This document shows positions 7,863-54,868 of a stretch of DNA of 64,000 bases, piece after piece. The notes under the pieces are model-generated. The model did not search any database. It saw only the letters and a program-made list of their open reading frames with translations, and had not been told where the DNA came from. Each line of letters starts with the position of its first letter. Position 1 is the stretch's first letter. Source of the DNA: Calothrix sp. PCC 7716. GTDB lineage: Bacteria; Cyanobacteriota; Cyanobacteriia; Cyanobacteriales; Nostocaceae. The DNA lies in NCBI RefSeq assembly GCF_019977735.1, contig NZ_AP025018.1, forward strand, positions 10,110,580 to 10,174,579, in the 5' to 3' direction. Both the position numbers and the translations under genes were made by a program.

Positions 7863-8987
7863 ATGGTTTCAATTCTTGCCCACGCCCAAAATCTAGTTTA
7901 CACTTTGCTGTCATTGATGCCTTCTACCTACCAACAAGAAAATCTCGAAGCGATGTTTGGGATGTTTTTAGAGGCACAAGGTTATCCTCTACCTCAACAC
8001 AGTAAAAGTAAGTCAGCTAGCGCCTTAAGCAGATTTCTCAACGTTTATAATTGGTCAACTAGAGGTGTGATTCGCACTGCCCGTAACCGTATTATTAAGG
8101 AGATTTTATCTGAGCGTTCGTTGGGGCGCCAACCATTTTTACAAGTTATTATTGACCTAACAACTTTGGAGAAAGCCGGAAAATTTAAGGGGCTTGAAAG
8201 CTTAATCAGCGTTTACCACGGAAAACGAGGTATGCATTTGGTTGTGGTGTACTTAGTTGTTGGTCGGTGGCGAATACCCTGGAGCTTCCGTGTTTGGAGG
8301 GGGAAAGGCGCCACTTCCCCAGCAAGATTAGGATTAAAAATGGTTAAATCTTTACCTAAAAAATTAACCAAGCACTTTAAAGAGGTAATGGTTTTAGTAG
8401 ATACAGGCTTCGGCAGTATCCAATTTATACACGGTGTTCGAGAGAAAAAATTTCACATAATTGCTGGCATAGCTTGTACCCGTAAGTTAGTTGATGGGCG
8501 CAGTGTCGCCCAATTACACAAACGAGGACAGCAACTTTACCTTCAGGGTTTAAAATTTCCTGTCTATATATCCTGGTATTATTTTAAGCGTCATGACGGT
8601 AAGTATGAGAAACGATTTGTTATTTCAACCAAAGCCCTCAAAGCAAGCACTATTTCTTGGTGGGGTAAACGAAGATGGCAGATAGAGGGTTGGTTTAAAA
8701 CCGCAAAACACCGTTTTGGATTACATCGCTTTGGACAAGGAACCCTCCTAGGGGTTTATCGCTGGTTAGTGTTGTCCCTGATATCTTATGTTTTGGCACA
8801 TTGGGCTTATTTATCGACATCGGGCGCCAACGGCGACTTACCTGACTGGGGTGAAGCAGCAGAAATTGCATTCCAAACTATATTTCCCCATTTAGTAGTG
8901 TTACTTCTTTTACAACATATCGAACAGATGAGAGACTTGCTACTGAGTCAAGGAATTGACATCCAAATTTCCAGGTGCAAGATATGA
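7863..8987 (+). CDS. IS4-type DDE transposase
   Basis: A 374-residue transposase with an RNase H-like core. Candidate catalytic residues are Asp in VIIDLTTLEK (about residue 97), Asp in VLVDTGFGS (about 180) and Glu in the RRWQIEGWFKTAKHRFGL segment (about 275), matching the Y-R-E-K signature region of IS4-type enzymes. The length is normal and the frame intact. I could not find convincing terminal inverted repeats or target duplications, so element borders are not given. It contains GGCGCC sites like the host genes, suggesting long residence. Confidence 0.82.
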   Translation: MVSILAHAQNLVYTLLSLMPSTYQQENLEAMFGMFLEAQGYPLPQHSKSKSASALSRFLNVYNWSTRGVIRTARNRIIKEILSERSLGRQPFLQVIIDLTTLEKAGKFKGLESLISVYHGKRGMHLVVVYLVVGRWRIPWSFRVWRGKGATSPARLGLKMVKSLPKKLTKHFKEVMVLVDTGFGSIQFIHGVREKKFHIIAGIACTRKLVDGRSVAQLHKRGQQLYLQGLKFPVYISWYYFKRHDGKYEKRFVISTKALKASTISWWGKRRWQIEGWFKTAKHRFGLHRFGQGTLLGVYRWLVLSLISYVLAHWAYLSTSGANGDLPDWGEAAEIAFQTIFPHLVVLLLLQHIEQMRDLLLSQGIDIQISRCKI

Positions 8988-14882: not shown

Positions 14883-14923
14883 TGTAAAAAATTGGATTCT
14901 GGTACAACAGTGAGGTATTGACT

Positions 14924-15874
14924 GTGTTAAAAATAATTCTACCAACGGAACTCGCTGATAAAGTCGAGCCACTTTTGCCGCAAGATATTACATCTATTCG
15001 CGTAAGCCCTGAAGGTGAATTTGATGGTGATATTAGTGATGCTGAAGTCTACTTCAATGGATTTAAATTAAAAAATACGACACTTCATAAAGTACTAGCA
15101 GCAGCACCGAAGATTCGCTGGCAACATACACCAAGTGCAGGTGTGAATCATATTCTTACACCTACATTTTTAGAACGTGATATAACTTTGACTAACGGTT
15201 CAGGAGTTCACGCTATACCTATTGCAGAATTTGTGCTGAACTTCATGCTTTACCATGCCAAGAATGTCCAAAAGTTGCAAAGTCTCCAAGCAGACCGCTA
15301 TTGGTACAAATGGTTTGAGTTACAAGAGTTATATAACAAAAATGTATTAATTCTTGGTACAGGAAACATTGGTAAAGAAATTGCCTCCCGCGCGAAAGCT
15401 TTTGGTATGAATGTTTGGGGTAGTCGTCGTAATCCTGAATCGTTACCTAATTTTGATAAAATAGTAGGCGCCGACTCATGGCAATCTCTTCTTCCAGAGG
15501 TTGATTATTTAGTAGTTGCCACTCCCCTAACACCAGAAACCAAAGGTTTAATTAACGCTTCGGTACTGCGGTCACTACGTCCGAGTGCCTACTTTATTAA
15601 TATAGCTCGCGGCGCCATTGTCGATGAAGAAGCACTACTTACCGCACTACGCGAAAACTGGATAGCAGGCGCCGGACTAGATACATTTGTTACGGAACCT
15701 CTACCCCCAGAAAGTGCTTTTTGGTCATTACCTAATGTATTTGTCACACCACATAACTCCGCTCTGACACCACAACTTTATGACCGGATTGTATCATTGT
15801 TTCTTGATAATTTAAATCGTTATAAAACTAGTCAGCCGTTACATAATGTGGTAGATAAACAGATAGGTTATTAG
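14924..15874 (+). CDS. D-2-hydroxyacid dehydrogenase
   Basis: About 316 residues. The nucleotide-binding loop is LGTGNIGKEIASRAKAFGM; the catalytic Arg lies in FINIARGAIVDEEAL, the Glu near GLDTFVTEPLP and the His in VFVTPHNSAL, the standard R-E-H triad. The family reduces 2-oxoacids to D-2-hydroxyacids with NADH or NADPH. GAGG at 14912-14915 is eight bases from the GTG at 14924 and only two from the TTG at 14918, so GTG is favoured. It is third in the operon and would suit 2-oxoacids left after desulfonation; that is inference. Confidence 0.87.
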   Translation: MLKIILPTELADKVEPLLPQDITSIRVSPEGEFDGDISDAEVYFNGFKLKNTTLHKVLAAAPKIRWQHTPSAGVNHILTPTFLERDITLTNGSGVHAIPIAEFVLNFMLYHAKNVQKLQSLQADRYWYKWFELQELYNKNVLILGTGNIGKEIASRAKAFGMNVWGSRRNPESLPNFDKIVGADSWQSLLPEVDYLVVATPLTPETKGLINASVLRSLRPSAYFINIARGAIVDEEALLTALRENWIAGAGLDTFVTEPLPPESAFWSLPNVFVTPHNSALTPQLYDRIVSLFLDNLNRYKTSQPLHNVVDKQIGY

Positions 15875-15897: not shown

Positions 15898-16971
15898 ATG
15901 TTCGAGCCGAGATATGGAATTTGGATTCCAGTTTATGGTAATTGCGGCGCCATGAATCATCCAAATGAACCCCGTAATGCTAGTTACGACAGAGCAAAGT
16001 ATTTGATTCAATTAGCAGAAGAATACGGATTTACAACAAGTCTCATTGCAGAACATATAATTAACCCTAGGAATCAAGAATTAGACCAGCTAGAAACATG
16101 GAGTACCGCAGCAGCTTTAGCAGAAGCTACAAACTCAATCGAAATTATTGCCGCAGTAAAACCTTTGCTATTTCATCCAGTAGTCTTAGCAAAAATGGCA
16201 TTAAACATTGATGCCATTAGCAAAGGAAGGTTTTCAATAAACCTGGTTAGTGCATGGTTCATGCCAGAATTGCAAAAATCCGGCATACCTTTTCTTCCTC
16301 ATGATGAACGCTACCGTTATTCTCAAGAATGGATAGAAGTAGTTAAAGCGTTATGGAGTGGAGAAAAAATTAATCACGTCGGCTCATATTTTAATATTAC
16401 CGATTTGTGTTTACGCCCGCGTCCAGTCGCACAACCTCATCCGCGCGTATATTTAGGGGGAGAATCCGAAGCAGCCAAAAATCTCGCTGTAGAATCAGCA
16501 GATGTATTTTTCTTAAATGGGCGCCCTTTAGAAGTTATAAAAGAAACAATTACAGATATTAATAAACGTCAACGTCTAAAATTAAAACCTTTACGGTTTG
16601 CAATGTCAGCTTTTGTAATTACTCGACCAACAGACACCGAAGCACAAACAGAATATAAATATCTTTTTGAACTGACCAAACAAGATGATAGAACCGAGCT
16701 AATAAAAGGTATTGAAAAAGAAGTAGTAATGTTCAAAAACATGGCAAATTACCCAGGTGTAGGAAGTAATGGAGGTACAGCAGCAGGACTAGTGGGAAAT
16801 TATGACACAGTAGCAGTAAAAATTGCTGAGTTTGTTGAAATAGGCATCGATACATTTATGCTGCAATTCCAACCCTTTGCCTCAGAAATGAAACGATTTT
16901 ATGAAGAAATAATGCCGCGAGTACAACATTTAAATTCGATATTTTCATCTCATATTAAAAGCCATCATTAG
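15898..16971 (+). CDS. LLM-class flavin-dependent monooxygenase (SsuD-like)
   Basis: A 357-residue luciferase-like TIM-barrel enzyme. It begins PRYGIWIPVYGNCGAMNHP, has LIAEHIINPRNQELDQLETW, the diagnostic GRFSINLVSAWF and DERYRYSQEW, followed by RPRPVAQPHPRVYLGGES. These fit alkanesulfonate monooxygenases, which use reduced FMN and oxygen to cleave a C-S bond, giving sulfite and an aldehyde. A flavin reductase gene is not in the window. AGGGTG precedes the ATG. The N-terminal half of a close paralogue survives at 57449-57976. Confidence 0.87.
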   Translation: MFEPRYGIWIPVYGNCGAMNHPNEPRNASYDRAKYLIQLAEEYGFTTSLIAEHIINPRNQELDQLETWSTAAALAEATNSIEIIAAVKPLLFHPVVLAKMALNIDAISKGRFSINLVSAWFMPELQKSGIPFLPHDERYRYSQEWIEVVKALWSGEKINHVGSYFNITDLCLRPRPVAQPHPRVYLGGESEAAKNLAVESADVFFLNGRPLEVIKETITDINKRQRLKLKPLRFAMSAFVITRPTDTEAQTEYKYLFELTKQDDRTELIKGIEKEVVMFKNMANYPGVGSNGGTAAGLVGNYDTVAVKIAEFVEIGIDTFMLQFQPFASEMKRFYEEIMPRVQHLNSIFSSHIKSHH

Positions 16972-18686: not shown

Positions 18687-18747
18687 CATAGCCAGCGTAG
18701 ATATTAGATATCAAAATATTAAGCTTTTTAGCTAAGGGGTGAGGCTT

Positions 18748-20367
18748 GTGGGCATAAATCAATTAATTTTAGAACAACAATCTAATAATGCTTCTGACTT
18801 AGATTTACAAGCGGATATTCTAGTTATTGGTGGTGGTCCAGCAGGAGCATGGGCAGCTTTAAGTGCGGCTTCTTCTGGAGCTAAAGTAGTTTTGGTAGAT
18901 AAAGGCTACTGCGGCGCCAGTGGTTCAACGGCTGCGGCTGGTACTACTGTATGGTTTGAACCTTCAGGAGAACAACGCGCGCAAGAAATAGCCAAGCGGC
19001 AAAGGGTAGGAGGGTTTTTATCAGAACTTTCTTGGATGGAAAGAGTTTTGGAGCAAACTCATACAAATTTGTATCAGTTAGGAAATTGGGGTTATCCTTT
19101 TTCATTAGACCAGCAAGGTCAACCTTATTATCCTTCACTCCATCAAGGCGCCGAGTATATGCGTCTGATGCGTAAGCAAATTAAAAAAGCTGGTGTGCAA
19201 ATTCTCGACCATTGTCCAGCTTTAGAATTATTAGTAGACTTAGAAGGTGCAGTTGCTGGAGCTTGTGGAATTAGGCGCCAAAATGGTGGAAGATGGCGAG
19301 TAAAAGCAGCATCTGTAATTATTGCTACTGGTGGTTGTGCTTTTTTGAGCAAAGCTTTAGGTTGTAACGTCCTAACTGGGGATGGTTATTTAATGGCAGC
19401 AGAAGCTGGGGTTGCAATGTCGGGTATGGAATTTTCTAATATCTACGGACTAACTCCGGCATGGTCATCTGTGACAAAAGGCGCCTATTATCGTTGGGCA
19501 ACATTTACCTATGAAGATGGAACTGAAATTGAAAACGCGACTTTCGGGAAACGCTCTACTATCGCCAAAGTACTATTAACTCAACCTGTATATTGCAGCT
19601 TGCACAAAACTCCCGAAGAAGTAAGAACATGGATGCGAACTATCCAACACAATTTCTTCTTGCCTTTTGAACGCACTGGTATTGACCCATTTACCCAACG
19701 CTTTCCTGTAACATTACGTTTAGAAGGAACCGTTCGAGGTACTGGTGGAATTCATATTATAGATAACTCCTGCGCGACTTCAGTCCCTGGACTTTATGCA
19801 GTTGGAGATGCAGCAACACGAGAATTTGTAGCAGGCGCCAGCAGTGGAGGTGGTAGTATAAATGCAGCTTGGGCAATGTCTTCTGGATATTGGGCAGGTT
19901 TAGATGCGGCGAAATATGCTTTATCACTTGGAAATAAAGTAAATGAACGAGAAGTTCAAGGAGTTGGCAAAGCAGGAATTTGGTCGGATAGTAATTTTGC
20001 TCCCCAAGAAGTTATCGGCGCCGTTCAAGCTGAAGTTTTGCCTTATGACCGTAATTTATTCCGCACAGAACATAATTTAAAAGATTCTCTCAAACGCTTA
20101 GATAATTTGTGGCATTCTGTTAAATATAGTGGCGCCGCAAGTGAAGACCAAGCATTGCAAGCACGGGAAGCGGCGGCGATGGTTGCAACATCTCGATGGA
20201 TGTATAATTCTGCACTAATACGTACAGAAAGCCGTGGTATGCATGAACGCCAAGATTACCAAGAACTTGACCCAAATCAGCAATATAAGCTACTTAGTGG
20301 TGGCTTAGATACAGTTTGGGTAAAACCTGAGCAGCACTTTAGAAATAAGGAGTTAGTGACACTGTGA
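18748..20367 (+). CDS. FAD-dependent oxidoreductase, fumarate reductase/AprA-like flavoprotein (copy A)
   Basis: About 539 residues. ILVIGGGPAGAWAAL is the FAD dinucleotide-binding motif, followed by VVLVDKGYCGASGSTAAAG. FPVTLRLEGTVRGTGGI and GLYAVGDAATREF are the substrate-domain and second FAD-contact motifs of the fumarate reductase, succinate dehydrogenase and adenylylsulfate reductase flavoprotein family. It overlaps the next gene by four bases (GTGA), and that gene encodes a two-cluster ferredoxin, an arrangement like AprA-AprB. The substrate is unknown; neighbours point to organosulfur metabolism. GTG 18748 is preferred because GGGGTGAGG precedes it; GTG 18739 is in frame too. Confidence 0.85.
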   Translation: MGINQLILEQQSNNASDLDLQADILVIGGGPAGAWAALSAASSGAKVVLVDKGYCGASGSTAAAGTTVWFEPSGEQRAQEIAKRQRVGGFLSELSWMERVLEQTHTNLYQLGNWGYPFSLDQQGQPYYPSLHQGAEYMRLMRKQIKKAGVQILDHCPALELLVDLEGAVAGACGIRRQNGGRWRVKAASVIIATGGCAFLSKALGCNVLTGDGYLMAAEAGVAMSGMEFSNIYGLTPAWSSVTKGAYYRWATFTYEDGTEIENATFGKRSTIAKVLLTQPVYCSLHKTPEEVRTWMRTIQHNFFLPFERTGIDPFTQRFPVTLRLEGTVRGTGGIHIIDNSCATSVPGLYAVGDAATREFVAGASSGGGSINAAWAMSSGYWAGLDAAKYALSLGNKVNEREVQGVGKAGIWSDSNFAPQEVIGAVQAEVLPYDRNLFRTEHNLKDSLKRLDNLWHSVKYSGAASEDQALQAREAAAMVATSRWMYNSALIRTESRGMHERQDYQELDPNQQYKLLSGGLDTVWVKPEQHFRNKELVTL

Positions 20368-20723
20368 TTGAATTAGTAAGTGAATCTCGCTGTATAGAAT
20401 GTAATCTTTGCGTCACCGCCTGCCCTACAAATGTTTTCGATAAAGTACCAGGAAAGGCGCCTAAAATCGCACGTAAAAGTGATTGCCAAACTTGTTTCAT
20501 GTGCGAATTATATTGTCCAGTAGATGCATTATATGTAGCTCCCCAAACTGATGAACTAGTCGAAGTAGACGAACAAACTTTAATCAAAAATGGTTTACTT
20601 GGCAGCTATCGAGAAGATATCGGTTGGGGCAAAGGAAGAACACCTGGCGCCTCTAAAGAAATGTCCGCATATTATTTCCCATTATTAAGCAATAGAAATT
20701 TACCTAAAACTTCATCTAATTAA
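20364..20723 (+). CDS. 2x[4Fe-4S] ferredoxin-like electron carrier (AprB-like)
   Basis: A 119-residue protein with two cluster motifs: C10-x2-C13-x2-C16-x3-C20-P (CIECNLCVTACP) and C41-x2-C44-x2-C47-x3-C51-P (CQTCFMCELYCP). This is the bacterial-type dicluster pattern, also the core of AprB. The C-terminal tail of about 60 residues lacks cysteines. Its GTG start overlaps the stop of flavoprotein A and its stop directly abuts the ATG of flavoprotein B, so it probably passes electrons to or from both. Confidence 0.9.
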   Translation: MIELVSESRCIECNLCVTACPTNVFDKVPGKAPKIARKSDCQTCFMCELYCPVDALYVAPQTDELVEVDEQTLIKNGLLGSYREDIGWGKGRTPGASKEMSAYYFPLLSNRNLPKTSSN

Positions 20724-22322
20724 ATGAATAACCAATCAATAGACCTAAAATTAACTGCCGATGTCTTAATTATTGGTGGTGGGCCAGCAGGAACTTGGGC
20801 AGCATTAAGTGCAGCTACTAGTGGAGCAAAAGTAATTTTAGTAGACAAAGGTTACTGTGGCACAAGTGGCGCCGCAGCAGCTTCGGGAAATGGTGTTTGG
20901 TATGTGCCTCCTGACCCAGAACAACGGGAAACTGCAATGGCTAGTCGTGAAGCAATGGGAGGATTTCTTGCTGACCGTAACTGGATGACGCGCGTACTAG
21001 ATAGAACCTATGATAATATTCAATCTCTAATAAATTGGAACTATAACTTTCATACAGACCACAATGGGCAAGTAGTTTATCGCTCTTTGCAAGGACCAGA
21101 CTACATGCGCTTCATGCGACAAAAGATTAAAAAAGCGGGTGTCAAAATTTTAGATAACAGTCCCGCTTTAGAATTGCTAGTAGATTTAGAAGGGGTTGTT
21201 GCTGGAGCAGCAGGTATTAACCGTCAATCTAACTCACGTTGGCAAGTCCGCTCTGGGTCTGTAGTAATTGCAACAGGTGGTTGTGCTTTTTTGAGTAAAG
21301 CCCTAGGTTGTAATGTATTAACAGGCGATGGGTTGCTGATGGCAGCAGAAGTAGGCGCCGATTTTTCTGGTATGGAATTTTCTAATGCTTATGCTATTTC
21401 TCCTGCCTGGTCTTCTGTCACCAAAACTCGTTTTTACGATTGGGCATCTTTTACATACGAAGATGGTACGGTAATTGAAGGCGCCGGTTCTAAACGTGGT
21501 CGCTCTGTAATTGCCAAAACTTTACTAACGCAACCAGTATACGCGCGTCTTGACCAAGGTGTGGATGAAGAAACGAAAGTATGGATGCGCGCGTCTCAAC
21601 CAAATTTCTTTGTTGTGTTTGACCGCGCGGGAATAGACCCATTTACACAAAGATTCCCTGTTACACTACGTTTGGAAGGAACAGTACGCGGTACGGGTGG
21701 AATTCGGATTACAGATTATACTTGCGCCAGCTCCGTTCCTGGTTTATATGCTGCTGGAGATGCTGCAACTAGAGAATTAATCTGTGGAGGATTTACAGGT
21801 GGAGGTAGCCACAATGCAGCCTGGGCAATGTCTTCCGGTTATTGGTCAGGTCAATCAGCTGCTGCCTATGCACTTAGTTTAGGAGATACATCGCAACGTC
21901 CAGTACAAGGAGTTGGAAAAGTTGGATTATCCTATACAGGAAATCAAACTTTATTCCCAGAAGAAATAATTACCGCAACCCAAGCAGAAGTTTTCCCTTA
22001 TGACCGCAACTTATTCCGCACAGCAACAGGTTTAAATGAATCTCTAGAAAGACTAAATAAGCTTTGGCAAGAGATTCGTAACAGTAAAATAACCACAGAT
22101 AATCAAATTGTGCGCGCGCGTGAAGCTGCGGCAATGTTAGCAACTGCTCGTTGGATGTACAGCAGTGGTATACAGCGTCAAGAAACCAGAGGAATGCACA
22201 AACGCGAAGATTTTCCTCTTCTTGACCCTAACCAACAACACCGTTTAATTAGCGGTGGTTTAGACACAATATGGGTAAAACCAGAGCAAACATCTGTGAG
22301 CAAGGAATTAATTAGCGTGTAA
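20724..22322 (+). CDS. FAD-dependent oxidoreductase, fumarate reductase/AprA-like flavoprotein (copy B)
   Basis: 532 residues, closely related to the product of 18748-20367 along its whole length. GGGPAG is at residues 18-23, then VDKGYCGTSGAAAASGNG, RFPVTLRLEGTVRGTGGI and GLYAAGDAATRELICGGF. Copy A has GASSGGGS after the last motif, copy B GGFTGGGS. The two might form a heterodimer with the ferredoxin or act on different substrates. The ATG follows the ferredoxin stop with no gap. A third, truncated copy lies at 34868-35955. Confidence 0.87.
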   Translation: MNNQSIDLKLTADVLIIGGGPAGTWAALSAATSGAKVILVDKGYCGTSGAAAASGNGVWYVPPDPEQRETAMASREAMGGFLADRNWMTRVLDRTYDNIQSLINWNYNFHTDHNGQVVYRSLQGPDYMRFMRQKIKKAGVKILDNSPALELLVDLEGVVAGAAGINRQSNSRWQVRSGSVVIATGGCAFLSKALGCNVLTGDGLLMAAEVGADFSGMEFSNAYAISPAWSSVTKTRFYDWASFTYEDGTVIEGAGSKRGRSVIAKTLLTQPVYARLDQGVDEETKVWMRASQPNFFVVFDRAGIDPFTQRFPVTLRLEGTVRGTGGIRITDYTCASSVPGLYAAGDAATRELICGGFTGGGSHNAAWAMSSGYWSGQSAAAYALSLGDTSQRPVQGVGKVGLSYTGNQTLFPEEIITATQAEVFPYDRNLFRTATGLNESLERLNKLWQEIRNSKITTDNQIVRAREAAAMLATARWMYSSGIQRQETRGMHKREDFPLLDPNQQHRLISGGLDTIWVKPEQTSVSKELISV

Positions 22323-22348
22323 TTTTTTAGTTAAGCAGGAAGATTATC

Positions 22349-23836
22349 ATGACTATTGCACTAGAACGTCCTAAGAAAAAAACACGTTCAGCAGAAATTC
22401 GTGAACAACTTGGATATCCCATCATTGATACTGATGTACATACCCAAGAATTTCCCCCAGCATTTTTAGACTATCTAGAGCAAGTCGCAGGCGCCGCAAT
22501 TGTAGAAAAGTTTCAAGAACACTTACCAGGTTCATCGCGTTCAAAATGGTTTAGTCAGACTTGGGAAGAACGACGAGCTTATAGAACAACACGTCCTCCT
22601 TTCTGGACTCGTCCTACTAACGATGCTTTAAATTTAGCAACTATTAGCTTACCTAAGTTACTCCATGAAAGACTCCAAGAAGCAGGTACAGACTTTGCTG
22701 TTGTGTACCCCAACTTAGCAACAATGGCGCCGCATATCGGTCATCCAGATATGCGACGTGCTGTATGTCGTGCGGCTAATACATACCATGCTGAAATTTT
22801 CCGTCCTTATGCTGACCGCTTAACACCAATTGCTTCTATTCCAATGCATACTCCTACTGAAGCCATAGAAGAATTGGAATATGCAGTCAAAGTACTAGGA
22901 CTAAAAGCAATTCAAATACCCGGTCATATCCGGCGCCCAATTCCTGCTTTCGAGAAGTATGGTGAGGAAGTCGCGAACGAAGCAATTTGGATTGATACAT
23001 TTGGTTTAGATAGTAAATACGACTATGACCCCTTCTGGGCAAAATGTGTAGAACTCAAAGTTGTACCTACCACTCACTCCAGTGGTATGGGTTGGATAAA
23101 TCGCCGCTCAATTTCCAACTATCAATATAATCATATTGGTCACTTTGCCTCTGCTGGTGAAGCATTGTGCAAATCACTATTTTTCGGTGGAGTTACTCAT
23201 CGTTTTCCCACATTAAAATTTGCTTTCTTAGAAGGTGGTTCTGCATGGGGCGCCAGTTTGTATGCTGATCTAGTATGGCACTGGTATACACGCAATGAAG
23301 ACCATATGTTAGAACATAACGACCCTAGCAAAATTAATCGTGAAGAACTTTTAGAATACTATGTTCGATATGGTGGTGAACAAGTCAACGGTCGCTTAGA
23401 CCAGTTAGGAAGTGGTTTAGGATTCCATGCCAACTTGTTATCTCCTTCAGACCCAGGTGAACAAGATGAATTTGCCCTGGCAGGAGTTAAAACTCCAGAA
23501 GACGTGCGCGCGCGCTTTTTAAATCATTTCTACTTTGGCACAGAATCAGATGATACCCGTGTTGCTCATGCATTTAACCGCAAAGCAAACCCTTATGGCG
23601 ACCGCGTAAAAGCATTCTTAGGTTCAGACTCAGGTCATTGGGATGTTCCAGATATTACCGCCGTCACCGCAAATTCCTACTCTTTTGTTGAACGTGGCAT
23701 TTTAAGCGAGGAAGACCTGCGCTACTTCTTATCTATTCATCCAATGGAGTTATACACCAGTCTCAACCGTGACTTCTTCAAAGGTACATCAGTAGAAAAA
23801 GCAGCCGAGGAATATTTCACTAATAATAAAAATTAG
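22349..23836 (+). CDS. Amidohydrolase-superfamily metal enzyme (ACMSD-like), copy 1
   Basis: 495 residues, a TIM-barrel metal-dependent hydrolase or decarboxylase of the amidohydrolase_2 type. YPIIDTDVH (D27-x-D29-x-H31) replaces the usual H-x-H metal pair; VVPTTHSSG holds a ligand His and FLGSDSGHWDVPD the catalytic Asp near residue 426. Characterised relatives are decarboxylases and C-C hydrolases. AGGAAG precedes the ATG. It directly follows the flavoprotein-ferredoxin genes and has a tandem copy downstream and a third copy at 45111, always near oxidative enzymes, so it probably processes the product of the redox step. Confidence 0.83.
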   Translation: MTIALERPKKKTRSAEIREQLGYPIIDTDVHTQEFPPAFLDYLEQVAGAAIVEKFQEHLPGSSRSKWFSQTWEERRAYRTTRPPFWTRPTNDALNLATISLPKLLHERLQEAGTDFAVVYPNLATMAPHIGHPDMRRAVCRAANTYHAEIFRPYADRLTPIASIPMHTPTEAIEELEYAVKVLGLKAIQIPGHIRRPIPAFEKYGEEVANEAIWIDTFGLDSKYDYDPFWAKCVELKVVPTTHSSGMGWINRRSISNYQYNHIGHFASAGEALCKSLFFGGVTHRFPTLKFAFLEGGSAWGASLYADLVWHWYTRNEDHMLEHNDPSKINREELLEYYVRYGGEQVNGRLDQLGSGLGFHANLLSPSDPGEQDEFALAGVKTPEDVRARFLNHFYFGTESDDTRVAHAFNRKANPYGDRVKAFLGSDSGHWDVPDITAVTANSYSFVERGILSEEDLRYFLSIHPMELYTSLNRDFFKGTSVEKAAEEYFTNNKN

Positions 23837-23844
23837 AAAATACT

Positions 23845-23917
23845 CTTGTGGAGCGGGCATCCCTGCCCGCCCCTTATATAAACATGCATAAACAGGCAAG
23901 GATGCCTGTTCCACAAG
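23845..23917. repeat. CTTGTGGA...GGGCATCC palindromic repeat
   Basis: Inverted arms CTTGTGGAGCGGGCATCC and AAGGATGCCTGTTCCACAAG between the two amidohydrolase genes. Related copies lie at 28213, 34237, 45014 and 53822. Confidence 0.8.
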
Positions 23918-23947
23918 ATTGTTCCACAATATTCAAGGTAAACAACA

Positions 23948-25435
23948 ATGACCATTGCATTAGAACGTCCAATCCAAAAAAGCAAATCTGCTCAAATTCG
24001 TGAACAACTAGGTTATCCCATTATTGATACTGATGTACACACCCAAGAATTTGAACCAGCAGTATTAGATTATTTAGAGCAAGTAGCAGGAAGCGCAATA
24101 GTCGAACGCTTCAAAGAACATTTACCAGGCGCCTCACGTTTTAAATGGTACAAACAAACATGGGAAGAACGTTTTGCGTATCGTAGCAACCGTCCTAACT
24201 GGTGGGGGCGCCCAACAAAAAACACTTTGAATTTAGCTACTATTAGTTTGCCCAAGTTACTTCATGAAAGACTTCAAGAAGCAGGTACAGATTTTGCCGT
24301 CGTGTATCCAAACTTGGCAACAATGGCGCCCAACATTGGTAATGAAGAAATGCGACGGGCAGTATGTCGCGCGCTAAATATCTACCATGCTGATATATTC
24401 CGTCCTTATGCTGACCGTTTAACACCAATTGCGGCAATTCCAATGCATACTCCTACTGAAGCAATAGAAGAATTGGAATATGCAGTAAATGTACTAGGAT
24501 TAAAAGCAATTCAGATACCAGGTTATGTTCGGCGCCCAATTCCTGCTTTTGAAAAGTATGGTAAAGAAGTAGCAAACGAGGTAGTTTGGATTGATAACTT
24601 TGGCTTAGACAGCGAATATGATTATGACCCATTCTGGGCGAAGTGCGTAGAACTCAAAGTAGTTCCTACCACCCACGCATCAAGTCAAGGTTGGACAACT
24701 CAACGCTCAGTTACGAATGCTCAGTACAATCATATTAACCACTTTGCCTTTGCAGCAGAAGCGCTGTGCAAATCTTTGTTCTTTGGTGGTGTGACTCGAC
24801 GCTTCCCCAATTTAAAATTTGCCTTTATGGAAGGTGGTTCTGCTTGGGGCGCCAGTTTGTATGCTGATATAATTTGGCATTGGGAAACCCGCAACAAAGA
24901 GCATTTATTAACTCATAACAATCCTGCCATTGTAGATAAAGAAGAACTCAAAGAGCTTTATATTCGTTATGATGGTGAACTAGTACATGGTCGCTTAGAT
25001 CAACTTGGTGATGGTTTAGGATTCCACAGTAAACATTTTGCACCTGAAGACCCAGGAGAGCTAGATGAATTTGCTGATGCTGGTATTGAGAAACCAGAGG
25101 ATGTGCGCGACCGCTTCTTAAATCATTTCTACTTTGGTACAGAATCAGATGATACTCGTGTATCTCAAGCTTTTAACCGCGCGGCATTGCCTTTTGGCGA
25201 CCGCGTAAAAGCTTTCTTGGGTTCTGATGCTGGTCATTGGGATGTGCCTGATATTACAAGCGTTACCGCTAATGCTTACAATATGGTAGAACGAGAGATT
25301 ATTAGCGAAGAAGATTTACGCTACTTCTTATCAATTCATCCATTGGAATTGTATACAAGTCTTAATCGTGATTTCTTTAAAGGTACGGTGGTTGAGAAAG
25401 AAGCTGAAGAATATTTGATGAGTGTTGGTCGATAA
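23948..25435 (+). CDS. Amidohydrolase-superfamily metal enzyme (ACMSD-like), copy 2
   Basis: 495 residues, same length as copy 1 and nearly alignable without gaps, clearly a tandem duplication. The metal motif YPIIDTDVH, VVPTTHASS and FLGSDAGHWDVPD are retained. Differences cluster around residues 70-80 and in the C-terminal third, which could alter substrate choice. AAGG precedes the ATG. A palindromic repeat has inserted in the spacer between the copies. Confidence 0.83.
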   Translation: MTIALERPIQKSKSAQIREQLGYPIIDTDVHTQEFEPAVLDYLEQVAGSAIVERFKEHLPGASRFKWYKQTWEERFAYRSNRPNWWGRPTKNTLNLATISLPKLLHERLQEAGTDFAVVYPNLATMAPNIGNEEMRRAVCRALNIYHADIFRPYADRLTPIAAIPMHTPTEAIEELEYAVNVLGLKAIQIPGYVRRPIPAFEKYGKEVANEVVWIDNFGLDSEYDYDPFWAKCVELKVVPTTHASSQGWTTQRSVTNAQYNHINHFAFAAEALCKSLFFGGVTRRFPNLKFAFMEGGSAWGASLYADIIWHWETRNKEHLLTHNNPAIVDKEELKELYIRYDGELVHGRLDQLGDGLGFHSKHFAPEDPGELDEFADAGIEKPEDVRDRFLNHFYFGTESDDTRVSQAFNRAALPFGDRVKAFLGSDAGHWDVPDITSVTANAYNMVEREIISEEDLRYFLSIHPLELYTSLNRDFFKGTVVEKEAEEYLMSVGR

Positions 25436-25548: not shown

Positions 25549-26361
25549 ATGGTTACAACTATTTCTAATTACGACCCAACTTTATTTCAAGGCGCCGCTT
25601 GGTACTACGCGCGTTACCGAGCAAAATATCCTCAAGCCTTATTTGATTTATTAGCTGATATCTTTAACCTTGATGGTACAGAAAGATTACTCGACCTAGG
25701 CTGTGGCGCCGGACTAGTGGCTATTCCTTTTCATAACCGCTTTGCCGAAGTGGTAGCGCTTGACCCAGATGCAGATATGCTCACTGAAGCGCAAGAGCAA
25801 GCTGTAAATGCTGGCGCCACTAATATTCGTTGGATTTATGACCGTGCAGAGTCTATTTCTGATGATTTGGGTGAGTTTAAATTAGTAACAATGGGACGTT
25901 CGTTTCATTGGATGCAGCGAGAGCTTGTATTATCCAAACTTGATTCTTTACTAAATAATGATGGCGGTATTGTTATTATTAAAACAAACGAGAATACTTG
26001 GGAGAGCCAACACCCTTGGAAACAAACTGCTATTGCCGTTGTTAGACGCTGGTTAGGTGATAGGCGCCGCACAGGCAAAGGTGGAGAAGGAGAGTGGAAA
26101 GCTTTAGAAATACCTCACGAAACTGTTTTAGCAAATTCTTCTTTTTCCAATATTACGTCCTACGAAGTGAAATTTGAGCAATCTTGGACGATTGATTCAT
26201 ATTTAGGCTACCTTTATTCAACCGCATTTGCTTTACCATCTTTCTTCGGCAACAACCGCGAAAAATTTGAGGTAGATTTAAAAGCTTCTTTATTAGCAGT
26301 GGAACCATCTGGACAGTTTAGTGAGATGTTACCAGTTACAGCTTTGGTCGCTAGGAAATAA
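25549..26361 (+). CDS. Class I SAM-dependent methyltransferase
   Basis: 270 residues. LLDLGCGAGLVAIPF is motif I for SAM binding, VVALDPDADML motif II and FKLVTMGRSFHWM the post-motif acid region. FQGAAWYYARYRAKYPQALF at the N-terminus is typical of a widespread group annotated as UbiE/Smt-type methyltransferases. AGGAG precedes the ATG. It lies between the amidohydrolases and a sulfonate-type binding protein. The substrate is unknown. Confidence 0.83.
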   Translation: MVTTISNYDPTLFQGAAWYYARYRAKYPQALFDLLADIFNLDGTERLLDLGCGAGLVAIPFHNRFAEVVALDPDADMLTEAQEQAVNAGATNIRWIYDRAESISDDLGEFKLVTMGRSFHWMQRELVLSKLDSLLNNDGGIVIIKTNENTWESQHPWKQTAIAVVRRWLGDRRRTGKGGEGEWKALEIPHETVLANSSFSNITSYEVKFEQSWTIDSYLGYLYSTAFALPSFFGNNREKFEVDLKASLLAVEPSGQFSEMLPVTALVARK

Positions 26362-26391: not shown

Positions 26392-27483
26392 ATGTTCCCT
26401 ACACTAAATTCTGATAATTTCGCAATATTTCGTCGCTTTACACTATTTTTGGCACCAGGACTATTAACTTTAACAACTTCATTGACGTTAATTAGTTGCG
26501 CTCCTACAACCCAAAAATCAGAAACTTCATCTTCTGCTAATGCAAATGTATCAAATGCTCAAACGAGCGGTATCAAAACTAAGGTACTGCGGATGGGGTA
26601 TCAGCAAGCAGGTGATTTAGTTAGAATTACAAAAGTTCTAGAAAAACGTTTAGAACCTCTGGGTGTAAAAGTCGAGTGGGCACAATTTGCCCAAGGACCC
26701 CAGCTAATGGAAGCGATGAATGTTGGTAAAATTGATTTGGGTTCTGTTGGTGAAACTCCCCCTATTTTCGCACAAGCAGCAGGTGCCAGAATAGTATACG
26801 TTGTTGGTACGCGACGTGATGAAAATAGTGGTAGAGGCAGTGCCATCGGTGTTCCACCAAATTCTCCTATTAAAAGCGTAAAAGACATAAAAGGTCAAAG
26901 AATCTTCTTTCAAAAAGCTTCTGCATCTCACTATTTTCTGCTTAGAGCCTTAGAAGATGTAGGTTTAAACAAAGACGACATTCAAAAAGTGAGTTTACCC
27001 ACCGTAGAATCTAACGCTGCATTTCTACAAGGAAAAATTCCTGTGTGGGTAACTAACGACCCATACCTAGCTCTAGCAGAAAAAGAAAATAAAATTAGAG
27101 TCATCAAAACTGCTCAAGGACTAGACTCACCAGGTGGATATTATATAGGCGCCAAGCAGTTTGCAATAGATAATCCAGAATTACTACGAGTAGTGATTGA
27201 AGAAATAGATAAAATTCAACGTTGGGCAGAAGCAAATCCCAAAGACGCTGCACAGCTAATTGTACCATTTCAGAAACTACCGCTCGATATCATGGAAACG
27301 GTTATTAGGCGCCGTACTTTAGGGTTAAGACCTATTACCCCAGATTTAATCAAAGAACAGCAGAAAGTTGCAGATTACTTCTACAAAAATGGTGTAATTC
27401 CCCAATCCGTAAATATTCAAGAAGCAACGCTTACACCAGAACAATACGCTGCAATTACTCCCCCATCAATCAGTCAAAAATAG
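26392..27483 (+). CDS. Sulfonate-type ABC substrate-binding lipoprotein (SsuA-like), second copy
   Basis: 363 residues with a lipoprotein signal ending LTLISC (Cys36). The mature part begins VLRMGYQQAGDLVRITKVLEKRL, then PQLMEAMNVGKIDLGSVGETPPIFAQAAG and IPVWVTNDPYLALAE, typical of the SsuA/TauA family of periplasmic binding proteins. It is related to but clearly diverged from the protein at 3184. Again no SsuB or SsuC gene is in the window, so it may share a transporter encoded elsewhere. It sits between two methyltransferase genes. Confidence 0.87.
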   Translation: MFPTLNSDNFAIFRRFTLFLAPGLLTLTTSLTLISCAPTTQKSETSSSANANVSNAQTSGIKTKVLRMGYQQAGDLVRITKVLEKRLEPLGVKVEWAQFAQGPQLMEAMNVGKIDLGSVGETPPIFAQAAGARIVYVVGTRRDENSGRGSAIGVPPNSPIKSVKDIKGQRIFFQKASASHYFLLRALEDVGLNKDDIQKVSLPTVESNAAFLQGKIPVWVTNDPYLALAEKENKIRVIKTAQGLDSPGGYYIGAKQFAIDNPELLRVVIEEIDKIQRWAEANPKDAAQLIVPFQKLPLDIMETVIRRRTLGLRPITPDLIKEQQKVADYFYKNGVIPQSVNIQEATLTPEQYAAITPPSISQK

Positions 27484-32051: not shown

Positions 32052-34075
<2,024 letters not shown>

Positions 34076-34649: not shown

Positions 34650-34871
34650 TTATTGTCCGCGTCCTGGCTTACAATCAGCAAAGCCCAATGCCTCTGTATC
34701 AAGGAAGCTGGCAATTGCCATTTCAATTACCGCTTCAATAGGATACTCAATTTCAGAAGCGCGCGCAATTAAAGCAGCTTGAATTCGTTCAGGCAAACGT
34801 TTCAGGATGACTTCGGCGTCAACTTTATCGAGTTGCTCTTTTGATTTTGCTTGCATAGCTTTACTATTCAC
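34650..34871 (-). CDS. Small hypothetical protein, RHH-antitoxin-like
   Basis: Up to 73 residues from a GTG at 34871 (67 from ATG 34856). QLDKVDAEVILKRLPERIQAALIARASEIEYPIEAVIEMAIASFLD suggests a short strand followed by helices, similar to ribbon-helix-helix DNA-binding proteins; the C-terminus is FADCKPGRGQ. It overlaps the end of the truncated flavoprotein gene, so it may have arrived with the sequence that replaced the flavoprotein C-terminus. Confidence 0.5.
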   Translation of the reverse strand: MNSKAMQAKSKEQLDKVDAEVILKRLPERIQAALIARASEIEYPIEAVIEMAIASFLDTEALGFADCKPGRGQ

Positions 34872-35955
34872 TTGGAATTTGGACGTTGTAAGGAGGTTCG
34901 GTAGCTCTCAAAATTATAGCTTCCAACTCTAATAGTAGCGCAGGGAGAAGCTAAACCAGATAAAAACTCGCGTGACGCAGCATCTCCAGCAGCGTAGAGT
35001 CCCGGAACTTTTGTACCACAACTATCGTTGATAATCCGAATTCCACCTGTACCGCGAACTGTTCCTTCTAATATTAATGTTACAGGCACTCGTTCTGCAT
35101 AAGGGTCAATACCTGCTTTTTTGTAAGGTAGAAAAGCAATGAAATGGGATTTTTCAATTACAGCTTTAACTTCAGGTGTAGCTCGATCTAAACGGGCATA
35201 AACGGCGCCCTTTAGTAGAGCATTGGGGAGAAACGATGGGTCACGACGACCATTGATGTAACCACCAAGGTCATTACCTGCTTCATCGGTGTAACTTGCC
35301 CAGCCAAAGGGAACTCCTCGTGTGACTGTAGCATTGAAAGCGGTGGAGATAGCATAGTGATTTGATGCTTCCATGCTGGAAAGTTCGGCGCCTGCTTCAA
35401 CTGCCATTAACAGTCCATCACCTGTATTTGTATTACAACCTAGTGCTTTACTTAAGAATGCACAACCGCCATTTGCCAGAACTACTGCACTAGCACGAAC
35501 AACGTATGTACGATGATTTTGGCGCTGTACACCTCTTGCTCCTGCGACTGACCCATCGTTAGCGAGTAAAAGCTCTAAAGCAGGACTTTGGTCGAGAATT
35601 TGTACACCAACGCGCAGCAGGTTTTTGCGAAGTACCCGCATATATTCTGGACCATAATAACTCTGCCGCACAGATTCCCCGTTTTCTTTGGGGAAACGAT
35701 AACCCCAATTTTCCACTAAGGGCAAACTAAGCCAAGTTTTTTCGATAACACGCTCGATCCAACGTGAGTTAGCAAGGTTTTTTCCTAAACGGTAACGCTC
35801 TGATGAAACTTTGTTCCAATTCTCTGGAGAAGGCGCCATGATACCATTACCACTGGCAGCAGCGGCGCCGCTTGTACCTAGAAAACCTTTATCAACAATG
35901 ATTACTTTGACACCTTGAGATGCAGCTGCCCATGCTGCCGCTTCTAAAAATCTAG
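34868..35955 (-). pseudogene. Truncated third flavoprotein (fumarate reductase/AprA-like)
   Basis: In frame, the reverse strand reads AAAWAAASQGVKVIIVDKG, TSGAAAASGNGIMAPSPENW and on to RVPVTLILEGTVRGTGGIRI and GLYAAGDAASREFLSG. It is clearly a paralogue of copies A and B. The first 15 to 25 residues with GGGPAG are missing where the TnpB-element end begins (about 35955-36016), and after SREFLSG the sequence turns into unrelated residues and stops, losing about 150 C-terminal residues. FAD binding would be impossible. This is a double-ended truncation. Confidence 0.85.
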
Positions 35956-36016
35956 GAAAATCTAGTTCCTTGAATCCAAGTCCACGGTATAACTTACAAA
36001 GACTGAAATGGAAACG

Positions 36017-36392
36017 CTACTTTGTAGACTTGGATGTTGCCCGACGTTCAGCTTTTACACCTACTTGCTCGACAACATCCTTAATCACCATTCCCCAGTT
36101 AGGTATGCTGAAATAATCGTGCCGTAACTTGATTATGGCAGCAGTCTTTGTGATTTTATTAAATTTTAACCAACCGCTCCATACGTGTTTTCTCGGATTC
36201 ACTCCAAGATAAGCGGACACGGATGCGGGTAATCTTTCAGACAGATTCATTCCCCTTCTAGCTATTACTAAAGCTGCTGCAATATCACTACTTAAACCAT
36301 ACATTCGGGAATATTTTACTAATCCAATAATTGAAGTATAAGCAGGATTTTTTTTATATAAACTAATTCCTCGGTTAGAAAGTATTGATTCA
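36017..36392 (-). pseudogene. TnpB-like protein, C-terminal part (split by ISAs1 element)
   Basis: Encodes QLLESILSNRGISLYKKNPAYTSIIGLVKYSRMYGLSSDIAAALVIARRG and a basic tail. SSDIAAALVIARRG holds the last RuvC Asp of TnpB-type nucleases. Joined to the part at 38258-39390 and counting the 10-bp duplication once, the gene is exactly 1509 bases, 502 residues in one frame. The frame extending to 36472 enters the inserted element and is artificial. Confidence 0.85.
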
Positions 36393-36402
36393 AGTAATTG
36401 AT

Positions 36403-38257
36403 CAGGGCAAACGCATCTTAAATTGCCAGTGGGTAAGGAATAGCGGTCAAACAGTGGCGCCTCGTAATTCAAATCCAGCTATTATTTATTATCAACCATT
36501 TAACGATATCACTATTTAACTAATTTGTTATTAAACGATTACATGTATTAATACATCACTGCTATAAAAAAATCAACAAACAAATAAAGGCGAAGGGTAT
36601 GGCTTCGCTATACCCCAGCCACGGGCGCCGAAAATAATGTGGGCATGTGATGATAATCTTTAAAAAGATTTCTCAGGTGCGGCTATGACTGATTTAATGA
36701 TGGAACCAAAACAAAAACGTACAATTGCTGACTTTTTTGAAAATGTAAAAGACCCAAGAGTTGAACGTACTAAGAGACACAAGCTGATAGATATAATTAC
36801 AATTGCAATTTGTGCGGTTATTTGTGGAGCCGAAACATGGATAGCTATAGAAACGTATGGGCAAGAAAAAAAAGAATGGCTGGAAAAGTTTTTAGAGTTA
36901 TCGAATGGTATTCCTTCTCATGATACTTTTGCAAGGGTTTTTGCAAAAATTAATCCCGCTTCTTTTCAAGAATGTTTTTTAGAGTGGATAAAATCAATTG
37001 CACAAATAACTAATGGTGAAGTGATTGCTATTGATGGGAAAAAATTAAGACGCTCATATAATAAAAAATCGTCTCAGCACGCGATTAATATGGTTAGCGC
37101 TTGGGCAGTAAGCAATCGATTAGTTATGGGACAGCTAAAGGTAGATAATAAATCCAATGAAATAACAGCAATTCCAGAACTAATAAAGGTATTAGATATT
37201 TCTGGCTGTATTGTTACGATTGATGCAATTGGTTGTCAGAAAGAAATAGTTAAGACTATAACGAAACAAGAAGGAGATTATGTAATTGCACTTAAATCTA
37301 ATCAAGGAAACTTATATCAAAATGTAGAGCAGCTATTTAAGGAAGCTATTTCCGTAAGATGTAGAGGATTCAAATCAAGCAGTTACAGCACTCGTGAATT
37401 AGGACATGGGCGTGAAGAAATACGTAATTATCTTATGCTTACAGACATTTCTAATCGCATTGCAGATAGTAAAGAATGGGAAAATTTCCAAAGTATAGGT
37501 ATGGTTGAATCAGTGAGAATTGTAAATGGAGAAACAACAGTTGAAACGCGCTATTATATCAGTAGTTTAAATCGAAACGCAAAAAAATTTGGGAATGCAG
37601 TTCGCAGCCATTGGAGTGTTGAAAATTCATTACACTGGATATTAGATGTTGGATTCAACGAAGATGATTGTCGCATTCGTAAAGATAATGCACCACAAAA
37701 TTTTGCAGTCTTACGTCGAATAGCAGTTAATCTTTTAGGTAAAGATAAAAGTCGAAAATTTGGGACGAAAAATAAACAGTTTTTGGCATCCATGAATAAC
37801 GAATACTTGGCTGATATTTTGGGGCTAAATTTATAATCATCTGCCAAATATCGAACTCGTTATAAATGTTAGTAAATCTCTAACTATGTGTGACCGATGA
37901 CTTTTAAAAATCAACAGCAAGTTATCTTAAACTTCGGAGTTAATTTTTAAATTATAAATAGCAAGCACATAGAATATAAGAGCGATTACTTCTTGTTAAA
38001 TATATTATTTATAAGGGCAAATTTATTACAGGCGCCCGTGGCTGGGCTATGGCTCCGCCATAGCCTTCGCCTTTATTTGTTTGTTGATTCATTGATAGTA
38101 TATGAGTATTAACATAAGTTATTATTTAATGATGATTTAATTAAATTTTGATATAGTTAAATAGTTGATAATGAATAATAGTTGTATTTGAATTACGAGG
38201 CGCCGCTGTTTGACCGCTATTCCTTGCCCACTGCTAATTTAAGATGCGTTTGCCCTG
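36403..38257 (+). mobile_element. Complete ISAs1-family insertion sequence, 1855 bp
   Basis: The element starts CAGGGCAAACGCATCTTAAA and ends with its inverse, AAGATGCGTTTGCCCTG. The directly repeated target AGTAATTGAT lies at 36393-36402 and 38258-38267, a 10-bp duplication as known for this family. The imperfect terminal repeats extend about 225 bases (36403-36629 against 38032-38257), far longer than usual. Each inner end has a GGCTATGGC-type hairpin near GCCACGGGCGCC. The transposase gene fills the centre. It is inserted in a TnpB-like gene. Confidence 0.93.
36685..37836 (+). CDS. ISAs1-family transposase
   Basis: 383 residues, full length. The N-terminal DUF4338-like region starts IADFFENVKDPRVERTKRHKL, and the DDE core has Asp in VIAIDGKKLRRS, Asp in CIVTIDAIGCQKEI and Glu in RSHWSVENSLHW (about residue 311), followed by NEDDCRIRKDNAPQN. 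These are the ISAs1 signature motifs. The gene contains no GGCGCC sites and has AT-rich codon use, in contrast with the surroundings, consistent with recent arrival. It is apparently intact and potentially active. Confidence 0.95.
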   Translation: MTDLMMEPKQKRTIADFFENVKDPRVERTKRHKLIDIITIAICAVICGAETWIAIETYGQEKKEWLEKFLELSNGIPSHDTFARVFAKINPASFQECFLEWIKSIAQITNGEVIAIDGKKLRRSYNKKSSQHAINMVSAWAVSNRLVMGQLKVDNKSNEITAIPELIKVLDISGCIVTIDAIGCQKEIVKTITKQEGDYVIALKSNQGNLYQNVEQLFKEAISVRCRGFKSSSYSTRELGHGREEIRNYLMLTDISNRIADSKEWENFQSIGMVESVRIVNGETTVETRYYISSLNRNAKKFGNAVRSHWSVENSLHWILDVGFNEDDCRIRKDNAPQNFAVLRRIAVNLLGKDKSRKFGTKNKQFLASMNNEYLADILGLNL

Positions 38258-46652: not shown

Positions 46653-46685
46653 GGTTTTTTCCTTAGCATTAATTTGTGGAAAATA

Positions 46686-53977: not shown

Positions 53978-54004
53978 ATAATATTGTTTCACAGGATGTC
54001 ATCT

Positions 54005-54868
54005 ATGAGTCTGAATGCTCAAATCCTAGACAGTCCAGCTTTCGAGACACTTCCAGCGGTTGAAGCAGAACTTAGCTACTTGATACCAATGGTAGAAAAG
54101 CCTGTCAACTACACTTACGAACCGCCAGCAGGTATTCCTAGGCAAAATGGCAAGCACGAGATCAAGAAGATAGCAATTAGGGATGCTCGACCAATAGCAA
54201 AAAACTTCTCTTTAGACCGGGAGGGTTTTGCATTCGTCGCACATAATAGTAGTGTGCGTGATTTCTACGATGAAGAAGAAATAGGGCGTGTTTATTATCC
54301 TGAAGCCGAGCAACTGTTGAAAGAGATTACAGGCGCCAACCAGGTAGTGATTTTTGACCACACTCTCCGTAATGCTCGACGTTTGCAGCAGGGTGAAACT
54401 TGGATTAAAGAACCAGCCAAGCGGGTACATAATGACTTTACGGCAAAATCTGGTTACACGCGCGCCCGACTAGAGTTAGCGGCAAGAGGAATAGAAAATA
54501 TTGATGAACTACTGCAACAAAGGTTCGCGATAATTAACGTTTGGCGCCCGATAGCAACAGTTCAAGAGTCACCATTGACAGTATGCGACGCACGCAGCAT
54601 AGCTCCGACAGACCTCGTAGCAGGCGACCTTGTTTACCGCCATCGAACTGGTGAGACATACGCAGTCACATATAATACAACGCATAGATGGTTTTATTTT
54701 CCGCAAATGCAACAAAACGAGGCATTGTTAATCAAGTGCTTTGATTCTGTGGAGGATGGAATAGCCAGGTTTGCCGCTCATACTGGGTTTGACGACCCAA
54801 CGAGTCCATCAAATGCTGCACCGCGCGAGAGCATAGAATTACGAACATTCGTTTTCTATCCTAAATAA
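54005..54868 (+). CDS. CmcJ/NvfI-family oxidoreductase
   Basis: About 287 residues from the ATG at 54005 (MSLNAQILDSPAF), which has AGGA upstream; ATG 53996 and TTG 53984 are alternatives. RDARPIAKNFSLDREGFAFV, VVIFDHTLRN, RVHNDFTAKSGYTRARLE and INVWRPIATVQESPLTVCDA are family landmarks. HND may be the H-x-D iron motif with a later His in NTTHRWFYFPQM. Characterised relatives are mostly from fungal and actinobacterial secondary metabolism (cephamycin, meroterpenoids), so presence beside sulfur genes is notable. The reaction is unknown. Confidence 0.8.
   Translation: MSLNAQILDSPAFETLPAVEAELSYLIPMVEKPVNYTYEPPAGIPRQNGKHEIKKIAIRDARPIAKNFSLDREGFAFVAHNSSVRDFYDEEEIGRVYYPEAEQLLKEITGANQVVIFDHTLRNARRLQQGETWIKEPAKRVHNDFTAKSGYTRARLELAARGIENIDELLQQRFAIINVWRPIATVQESPLTVCDARSIAPTDLVAGDLVYRHRTGETYAVTYNTTHRWFYFPQMQQNEALLIKCFDSVEDGIARFAAHTGFDDPTSPSNAAPRESIELRTFVFYPK

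Follow-up and report, generated by a model that had tools for sequence, protein, structure and literature searches.

A cyanobacterial Asf-type sulfonate locus with candidate amidohydrolase-fold dinuclear oxygenases in Calothrix sp. PCC 7716

Introduction

In Pseudomonas putida S-313, the asfRABC genes encode a reductase/ferredoxin pair, to which electron transfer in C-S oxygenation is ascribed, and a binding protein. They are required besides ssu for aromatic sulfonates, and asfA mutants keep the use of aliphatic sulfonates and lose that of aromatic ones (PMC4267179, accessible part). Here, a set of five genes from Calothrix sp. PCC 7716 is analyzed, in which two flavoproteins bracket a ferredoxin and two amidohydrolases follow. 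The set lies in a stretch of 64,000 nucleotides, hereafter the window (C1:10110580-10174579 of the 12.4 Mb genome). The comparisons presented below point, with confidence somewhat short of even, to a cyanobacterial Asf-type sulfonate-scavenging operon joined to putative amidohydrolase-fold dinuclear-metal oxygenases.

In Cupriavidus metallidurans CH34, AsfA and AsfB are assigned to Rmet_4334/5, and genes numbered either side of these (4120-4123, 4365) are placed on CHR2 (2,580,084 bp), according to the accessible part of PMC2864759. The parts of PMC4267179 and PMC2864759 available to us assign AsfAB to electron transfer in C-S oxygenation and, apart from ssu, mention no terminal oxygenase specific to it. 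In the accessible portions of the literature (PMC4267179 among the sources), asfA has been used as a marker of sulfonate use in soil, and the taxa listed for it are Proteobacteria and Actinobacteria; cyanobacteria and Bacillota are not listed. Among the open-licence PMC literature searched with asf terms, no asfA was reported in cyanobacteria or Bacillota, and no amidohydrolase-fold oxygenase was linked with Asf in the open-licence PMC literature searched. In the accessible portions of three of these papers, asfA occurs only in the reference list (PMC4070957), or the matches are other words beginning with 'asfa' (PMC8772785, PMC8234452).

Very few amidohydrolase-fold dinuclear oxygenases have been described; amidohydrolase-related ones were found via an adjacent ferredoxin gene, and one of them, SfbO, has a sulfate-binding active site and accepts 2-aminoethylsulfonate buffers as substrates (PMC10811679). 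What is new here is a candidate link of Asf with dinuclear amidohydrolase-fold proteins, the flavoprotein-ferredoxin pair being already known in kind. Sulfonate use matters in cyanobacteria, as indicated by a Nostoc alkanesulfonate-monooxygenase mutant deficient in feathermoss colonisation (PMC7784912, accessible part).

Gene layout and the flavoprotein-ferredoxin pair

The open reading frame (ORF) coordinates and Pfam matches agree with an earlier note on this DNA, which had described two flavoproteins bracketing a dicluster ferredoxin with overlapping or abutting genes, followed by two tandem amidohydrolases. The ferredoxin, with a Pfam 4Fe-4S dicluster domain, has a gene that overlaps that of flavoprotein A by 4 nt and abuts that of flavoprotein B in the ORF calls, and both amidohydrolases (ami1 and ami2, collectively ami) belong to PF04909 (Table 1). 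Identity is 63% between flavoproteins A and B, and 79% between ami1 and ami2. Calothrix sp. HK-06 (locus L022) carries the same five genes in identical order, with protein identities of 95.6-99.2%. For this one genome pair, the ratio of nonsynonymous to synonymous substitution rates (dN/dS) is, in gene order, 0.16, 0.03, 0.10, 0.06 and 0.04, and purifying selection acts on all five genes. Given that the same five-gene order recurs in Calothrix sp. HK-06 with dN/dS of 0.03-0.16, the layout is more than chance. One genome of the same genus (G394) carries the same locus.

The earlier note had put the set forward as a candidate undescribed organosulfur pathway, and for the flavoprotein-ferredoxin pair this is not supported: as judged from sequence, the pair is AsfA-AsfB, known in kind, with 57-64% identity to the CH34 protein. 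A tblastn search of CH34 CHR2 found a single place of this flavoprotein family, followed by an overlapping ferredoxin gene; the replicon record carries no locus tags, and the identity of the CH34 AsfA was assigned by elimination. This protein, rather than a P. putida sequence, is the reference for AsfA likeness. Identity to it is 56.6% for A, 63.8% for B, and 61.0% for a further copy upstream of the window. In a 53-row tree, A, B, the upstream copy and the CH34 protein fall in one cyanobacterial-proteobacterial clade with support 97/91, and three outgroup flavoproteins of the same genome, on very long branches, can be placed only as far away.

As in the AsfA-AsfB(-AsfC) systems of P. putida S-313 and CH34, the window presents a flavoprotein, an overlapping 2x[4Fe-4S] ferredoxin and an SsuA-like binding protein, in a sulfonate context. 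Unlike in those systems, asfA is duplicated around one ferredoxin, two PF04909 genes follow, and the host is a cyanobacterium. The SsuA-like (asfC-type) gene is in the same gene run in the window, and directly after the ferredoxin in many relatives, in the order of asfABC. No LysR (asfR-type) gene was found among the window ORFs scanned, which are a subset of all its ORFs.

The window flavoproteins resemble fumarate reductase more than AprA. We take the catalytic residues of fumarate reductase/succinate dehydrogenase to be H232, H355 and R390. In the alignment with FrdA, H233 (232 in the literature) is replaced by Tyr, H356 (355) by Glu and the active-site Arg by a non-Arg residue, and the His binding flavin adenine dinucleotide (FAD) covalently is also replaced. 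Given that the flavoprotein of fumarate reductase/succinate dehydrogenase has the catalytic His, His and Arg and the covalent-FAD His, whereas A and B do not, and that the bit scores are far under the cut-offs, this identity was rejected. L-aspartate oxidase (NadB) was likewise considered, and its cut-off is not reached (TIGR00551, 90 and 95 bits vs 452.75).

A separate flavoprotein of this genome, about 12 kb downstream of the window (G000:C1:10186617-10188254; L020:12621-14321, also in L015), belongs to a family other than AsfA, with 1000 bits for the PRK08275 equivalog (cut-off 587) and 321 bits for the AprA profile. It is near ferredoxin-like, SsuA and ApbC-like genes.

Amidohydrolases as candidate dinuclear oxygenases

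The ami proteins resemble dinuclear oxygenases that activate O2 more than they do decarboxylases or hydrolases. This reading comes from the AibH2 ligand set with its acidic residue, which is unvaried, and from the ranks of the predicted fold by Z. The dinuclear-iron ligands of AibH2 are matched in ami by D29, H31, H243, E295, D427 and H430, a match by motif and order rather than by superposed coordinates. These six are unvaried in the 139-142 of 142 aligned family rows that fill each column. The extra acidic residue D432, counterpart of AibH2 D342, is present in all rows having that column (140/142), and such a residue is tied in the literature to dinuclear sites. Position 295 is Glu in 142/142 rows, where ACMSD has His, and a D-x2-H-x-D motif is unvaried in the 140 rows (of 142) with these columns. 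The search with the predicted fold returned PtmU3, AibH2, TruffO and SfbO as the top matches by Z. The C-terminal 116 residues of ami2, used as a query against the PDB, gave no useful match.

The ami proteins share with AibH2, PtmU3 and SfbO the fold, as predicted, and the full D-H-H-E-D-H set plus the acidic residue, and have a ferredoxin gene in the same run. They differ in length (about 490 aa vs 350-380) and have 16-21% identity over aligned residues. Their set also comprises a 4Fe-4S ferredoxin and a complex-II-type flavoprotein, where the AibH2/PtmU3/SfbO-type systems have a Rieske protein.

Co-occurrence and neighborhood of asf loci

In a sample of 292 cyanobacterial genomes, with cut-offs of E 1e-80 for AsfA, 1e-40 for the amidohydrolase and 1e-100 for SsuD, these genes are present in 15, 17 and 26 genomes, respectively. 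The amidohydrolase is found in 14/15 AsfA genomes (Fisher one-sided p 3.7e-20) and SsuD in 13/15 (p 7.3e-14). Within the one family that holds all AsfA cases (32 genomes), the values are 1.8e-5 for the amidohydrolase and 4.6e-4 for SsuD. All these tests treat genomes as independent, which related genomes are not. In the order-level sample (n=148), the flavoprotein occurs in 4 genomes, the amidohydrolase in 5 and both in 4. The amidohydrolase is on the AsfA contig within 50 kb in 9 of 14 genomes, and SsuD within 20 kb in 10 of 13. The ami1/ami2 subtype was encountered only in genomes with asfA (7/7: G000, G239, G275, G394, G396, G399 and G401) and adjoins asf in four of them. A plasmid search with ami2 yielded two records: in Variovorax the match is beside SsuA-like transporter and TauD-like genes, and in Pseudanabaena it is in a sulfonate region.

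The survey of gene neighborhoods comprises 79 loci from named genomes (from the best 80 of 137 confirmed stretches), of which 32 are cyanobacterial and 47 belong to Bacillota, Pseudomonadota and one Planctomycetota. The ferredoxin is directly downstream of the flavoprotein in 47/47 non-cyanobacterial loci, and an SsuA-, SsuB- or SsuC-like gene is within 5 kb in 43/47 (SsuA-like in 40), where the ATPase (SsuB-like) matches may belong to other ATP-binding cassette (ABC) systems. Of the 32 cyanobacterial loci, 22 have a ferredoxin directly downstream or just upstream, 27 have transporter-like genes nearby, and 11 have an ami homologue within 5 kb, a number that rises to 12 at 10 kb. Loci L054-L105 gave no match to a hidden Markov model of the ami family, in agreement with the absence of ami homologues within 10 kb in the 47 non-cyanobacterial loci. 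In an unbiased clustering of neighbors, the flavoprotein, ferredoxin and ABC genes are followed chiefly by luciferase-like monooxygenases (25 loci); ami is present in 13 loci, all in cyanobacteria. The survey had been suggested in the earlier note, and neither of the two outcomes named there as refuting was encountered: co-occurrence with sulfonate genes proved to be conserved, and no substrate unrelated to sulfur emerged for the flavoproteins.

When the window is included, 33 cyanobacterial loci are available, with the flavoprotein on both sides of the ferredoxin in 10, only upstream in 10 and only downstream in 4. Two of the two-sided loci have a mere remnant upstream and one a split downstream copy. 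In 8/10 of them, a gap of 1.1-1.3 kb separates the ferredoxin from the second flavoprotein, with an SsuA-like match inside it in 8/8; the gap gene of L024 was scanned and confirmed as SsuA-like. This gap is missing from the window and from L022, and thus, unlike these eight relatives, the window has no binding-protein gene at this place. From these sequences we infer that the flavoprotein-ferredoxin-flavoprotein layout probably arose by duplication of asfA and loss of the intervening asfC.

An amidohydrolase gene is also beside asfAB in CH34. It was considered as evidence of a universal Asf-amidohydrolase link and dropped, as it belongs to another family (PF07969). This Amidohydro_3 gene (L101:9069-10742, -) and an SsuABC-like transporter adjoin asfAB, and its homologues recur in asf loci of Azospirillum (L102) and Bradyrhizobium (L088).

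Proposed function and alternatives

In the proposed operon, a sulfonate would be imported when sulfate is short. Electrons would move between AsfA, at its FAD, and the AsfB clusters and on to the dinuclear centre in the amidohydrolase-fold protein, or alternatively AsfAB would prepare the substrate. The dinuclear centre would activate O2 and hydroxylate the substrate at or near the sulfur-bearing carbon, and the unstable product would lose sulfite, which would enter cysteine synthesis. The two AsfA paralogues may be alternative catalytic subunits, each with its own substrates. The narrower proposal, in which AsfA-AsfB joins the tandem PF04909 proteins in a single new multicomponent monooxygenase for sulfonates (complex-II-type flavoprotein to two-cluster ferredoxin to an amidohydrolase-fold Fe2 or Mn/Fe oxygenase), is possible and rather doubtful. 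The locus offers a concrete candidate for the terminal oxygenase partner of Asf, may represent a native setting of amidohydrolase-fold dinuclear oxygenases, and suggests a way of removing sulfur from sulfonates. If the proposal is true, it would supply the missing Asf terminal oxygenase in cyanobacteria, and a native sulfur role for an oxygenase class whose member SfbO has no known native substrate.

Several observations weigh against an oxygenase partnership of this kind. No ami homologue is within 10 kb of asf in any of the 47 non-cyanobacterial loci, and hence AsfAB must have other partners elsewhere. In cyanobacteria, 9/33 loci have no ferredoxin match near the flavoprotein, ami1/ami2-type genes are away from asf in three genomes (G401, G399 and G396), and an ami homologue is present without asfA in four (G077, G203, G225 and G395, at E 1e-40). 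The dinuclear motif is carried by 22 of the 30 PF04909 loci of relatives, 10 of which are outside the ami family. The Z values of 33.8 and 31.8 for oxygenases vs 30.1 for a decarboxylase differ little (decarboxylases are within 2-4 Z), and the Foldseek E-value mixes the two classes, with a decarboxylase (6jqx) first. The complex-II flavoprotein fold is not known to take electrons from NAD(P)H, and the label 'reductase' for AsfA may therefore be wrong.

Some of these points can be read in favor of other explanations. The main one is that AsfAB acts on the substrate itself, transferring two electrons at the FAD to the sulfonate as in fumarate or PAPS reductase. An arylsulfonate, for example, would lose its aromaticity, which would make the C-S carbon sp3; sulfite would then be released by an SsuD-type enzyme or another monooxygenase, and the dienone would re-aromatise to a phenol, the amidohydrolases being a separate step in the same island. 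The asf loci without ami, which are the rule outside cyanobacteria, favor this explanation. It does not account for the close association with ami in this cyanobacterial family, an unactivated aryl ring is energetically difficult for a flavin to reduce, and the dearomatisation is a conjecture of this analysis; we consider this explanation unlikely overall. The earlier note had instead proposed a redox step followed by hydrolysis or decarboxylation; in such a version, ami would be ACMSD/LigW-like mononuclear decarboxylases or hydrolases processing the carbon skeleton. Sequence-only PDB matches do start with ACMSD, and the first Foldseek entry, 6jqx, is listed among salicylate decarboxylase entries. 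This version has become less likely, and is now quite improbable, since the amidohydrolases carry the dinuclear-oxygenase ligand set, with Glu at 295 and an unvaried D-x2-H-x-D motif; moreover, the dinuclear motif is not universal in PF04909, 8/30 loci of relatives being without it.

AprAB and the PAPS reductase of Methanothermococcus have flavoproteins that go with a ferredoxin subunit, and their flavoprotein fold is common with that of A and B. This common fold, together with weak AprA profile matches (62.6 and 56.1 bits for A and B), would favor AprA-like enzymes interconverting sulfite and adenosine 5'-phosphosulfate. Given that these scores are far below the cut-off of 557 bits (NCBIfam), the AprA identity was rejected. 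Structurally, AprA also matches less well than FrdA, PAPS reductase or NadB, and such a role is very improbable.

Surrounding sulfur-scavenging island

The sulfur-scavenging region spans roughly 100 kb. The window contains two SsuA-family genes, a taurine-dioxygenase-like gene (below its cut-off), a TauE-family gene, and SfnG-like and NtaA/DmoA-like monooxygenases dependent on flavin mononucleotide (FMN). Upstream of the window are SsuD, an SfnB/DszC-like enzyme, SsuA copies, a sulfatase-like gene and, at about 10 kb, a fourth flavoprotein copy paired with a ferredoxin (G000:C1:10098107-10100117, -). The organosulfur role put forward in the earlier note is supported by these SsuA, SsuD, TauD-like, SfnG-like and SfnB/DszC-like genes in or just upstream of the window, and by the co-occurrence of the set with both SsuD and the amidohydrolase, well beyond chance. 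The broken third flavoprotein and the third amidohydrolase named there were also recovered, the latter beside an NtaA/DmoA-family FMN monooxygenase. The features are presented in Table 1.

Table 1. Features of the window, with the five-gene set first.
Feature	Position	Strand	Evidence
Flavoprotein A (AsfA-type, 542 aa, GTG start)	18739-20367	+	FAD_binding_2 + Succ_DH_flav_C; 56.6% identity to CH34 AsfA candidate
2x[4Fe-4S] ferredoxin (AsfB-type, 119 aa)	20364-20723	+	two CxxCxxCxxxCP motifs; conserved C-terminal tail (gllGsyR...GWg)
Flavoprotein B (AsfA-type, 532 aa)	20724-22322	+	FAD_binding_2 + Succ_DH_flav_C
Amidohydrolase 1 (ami1), candidate dinuclear oxygenase	22349-23836	+	Amidohydro_2 (PF04909); ligand pattern DHHEDHD conserved
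Amidohydrolase 2 (ami2), candidate dinuclear oxygenase	23948-25435	+	Amidohydro_2 (PF04909)
Methyltransferase-like gene, same run of genes	25549-26361	+	homologue after ami genes in several relatives
SsuA-family sulfonate substrate-binding protein, same run	26392-27483	+	TIGR01728 186.9 bits, cut-off 163.5
D-2-hydroxyacid dehydrogenase, recurrent asf neighbor	14918-15874	+	homologues near a flavoprotein in 12 loci
SfnG/SsuD-like FMN monooxygenase	15898-16971	+	profile scores under both cut-offs
Broken third AsfA-type flavoprotein fragment	34868-35920	-	similarity 35920-34931 covers only residues 45-374 of 542
Third amidohydrolase (ami3 subtype)	45111-46652	-	same ligand pattern; 45-47% identity to ami1/ami2
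NtaA/DmoA-family FMN monooxygenase, usual ami3 neighbor	46686-48053	-	613 bits, cut-off 279.7
CmcJ/NvfI-family oxidoreductase in island	53984-54868	+	326 bits, cut-off 80

In 9/11 loci, no more than 0.5 kb separates an ami3-subtype gene from an NtaA/DmoA-like monooxygenase gene. The pair (45111-48053, -, in the window) recurs in cyanobacteria (L027, L051, L114-L116, L120-L122), also in genomes without asfA, and may be a separate oxygenase module.

The region of the broken AsfA-type gene (34868-36472, -) is near a DDE transposase (36685-37836, +), and another transposase is at 7863-8987. A GroEL gene (32052-33767, -) is inside the island, with a small GroES-like ORF at 33767-34075 recognized by eye; 6 loci have a GroEL homologue no more than 8 kb from an AsfA-type gene. 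Finally, one ORF of a surveyed locus (L019:14196-15500, -) matches both Fic/DOC (residues 4-80) and a major facilitator superfamily transporter (82-382), an odd combination that is perhaps a fusion or an assembly effect.

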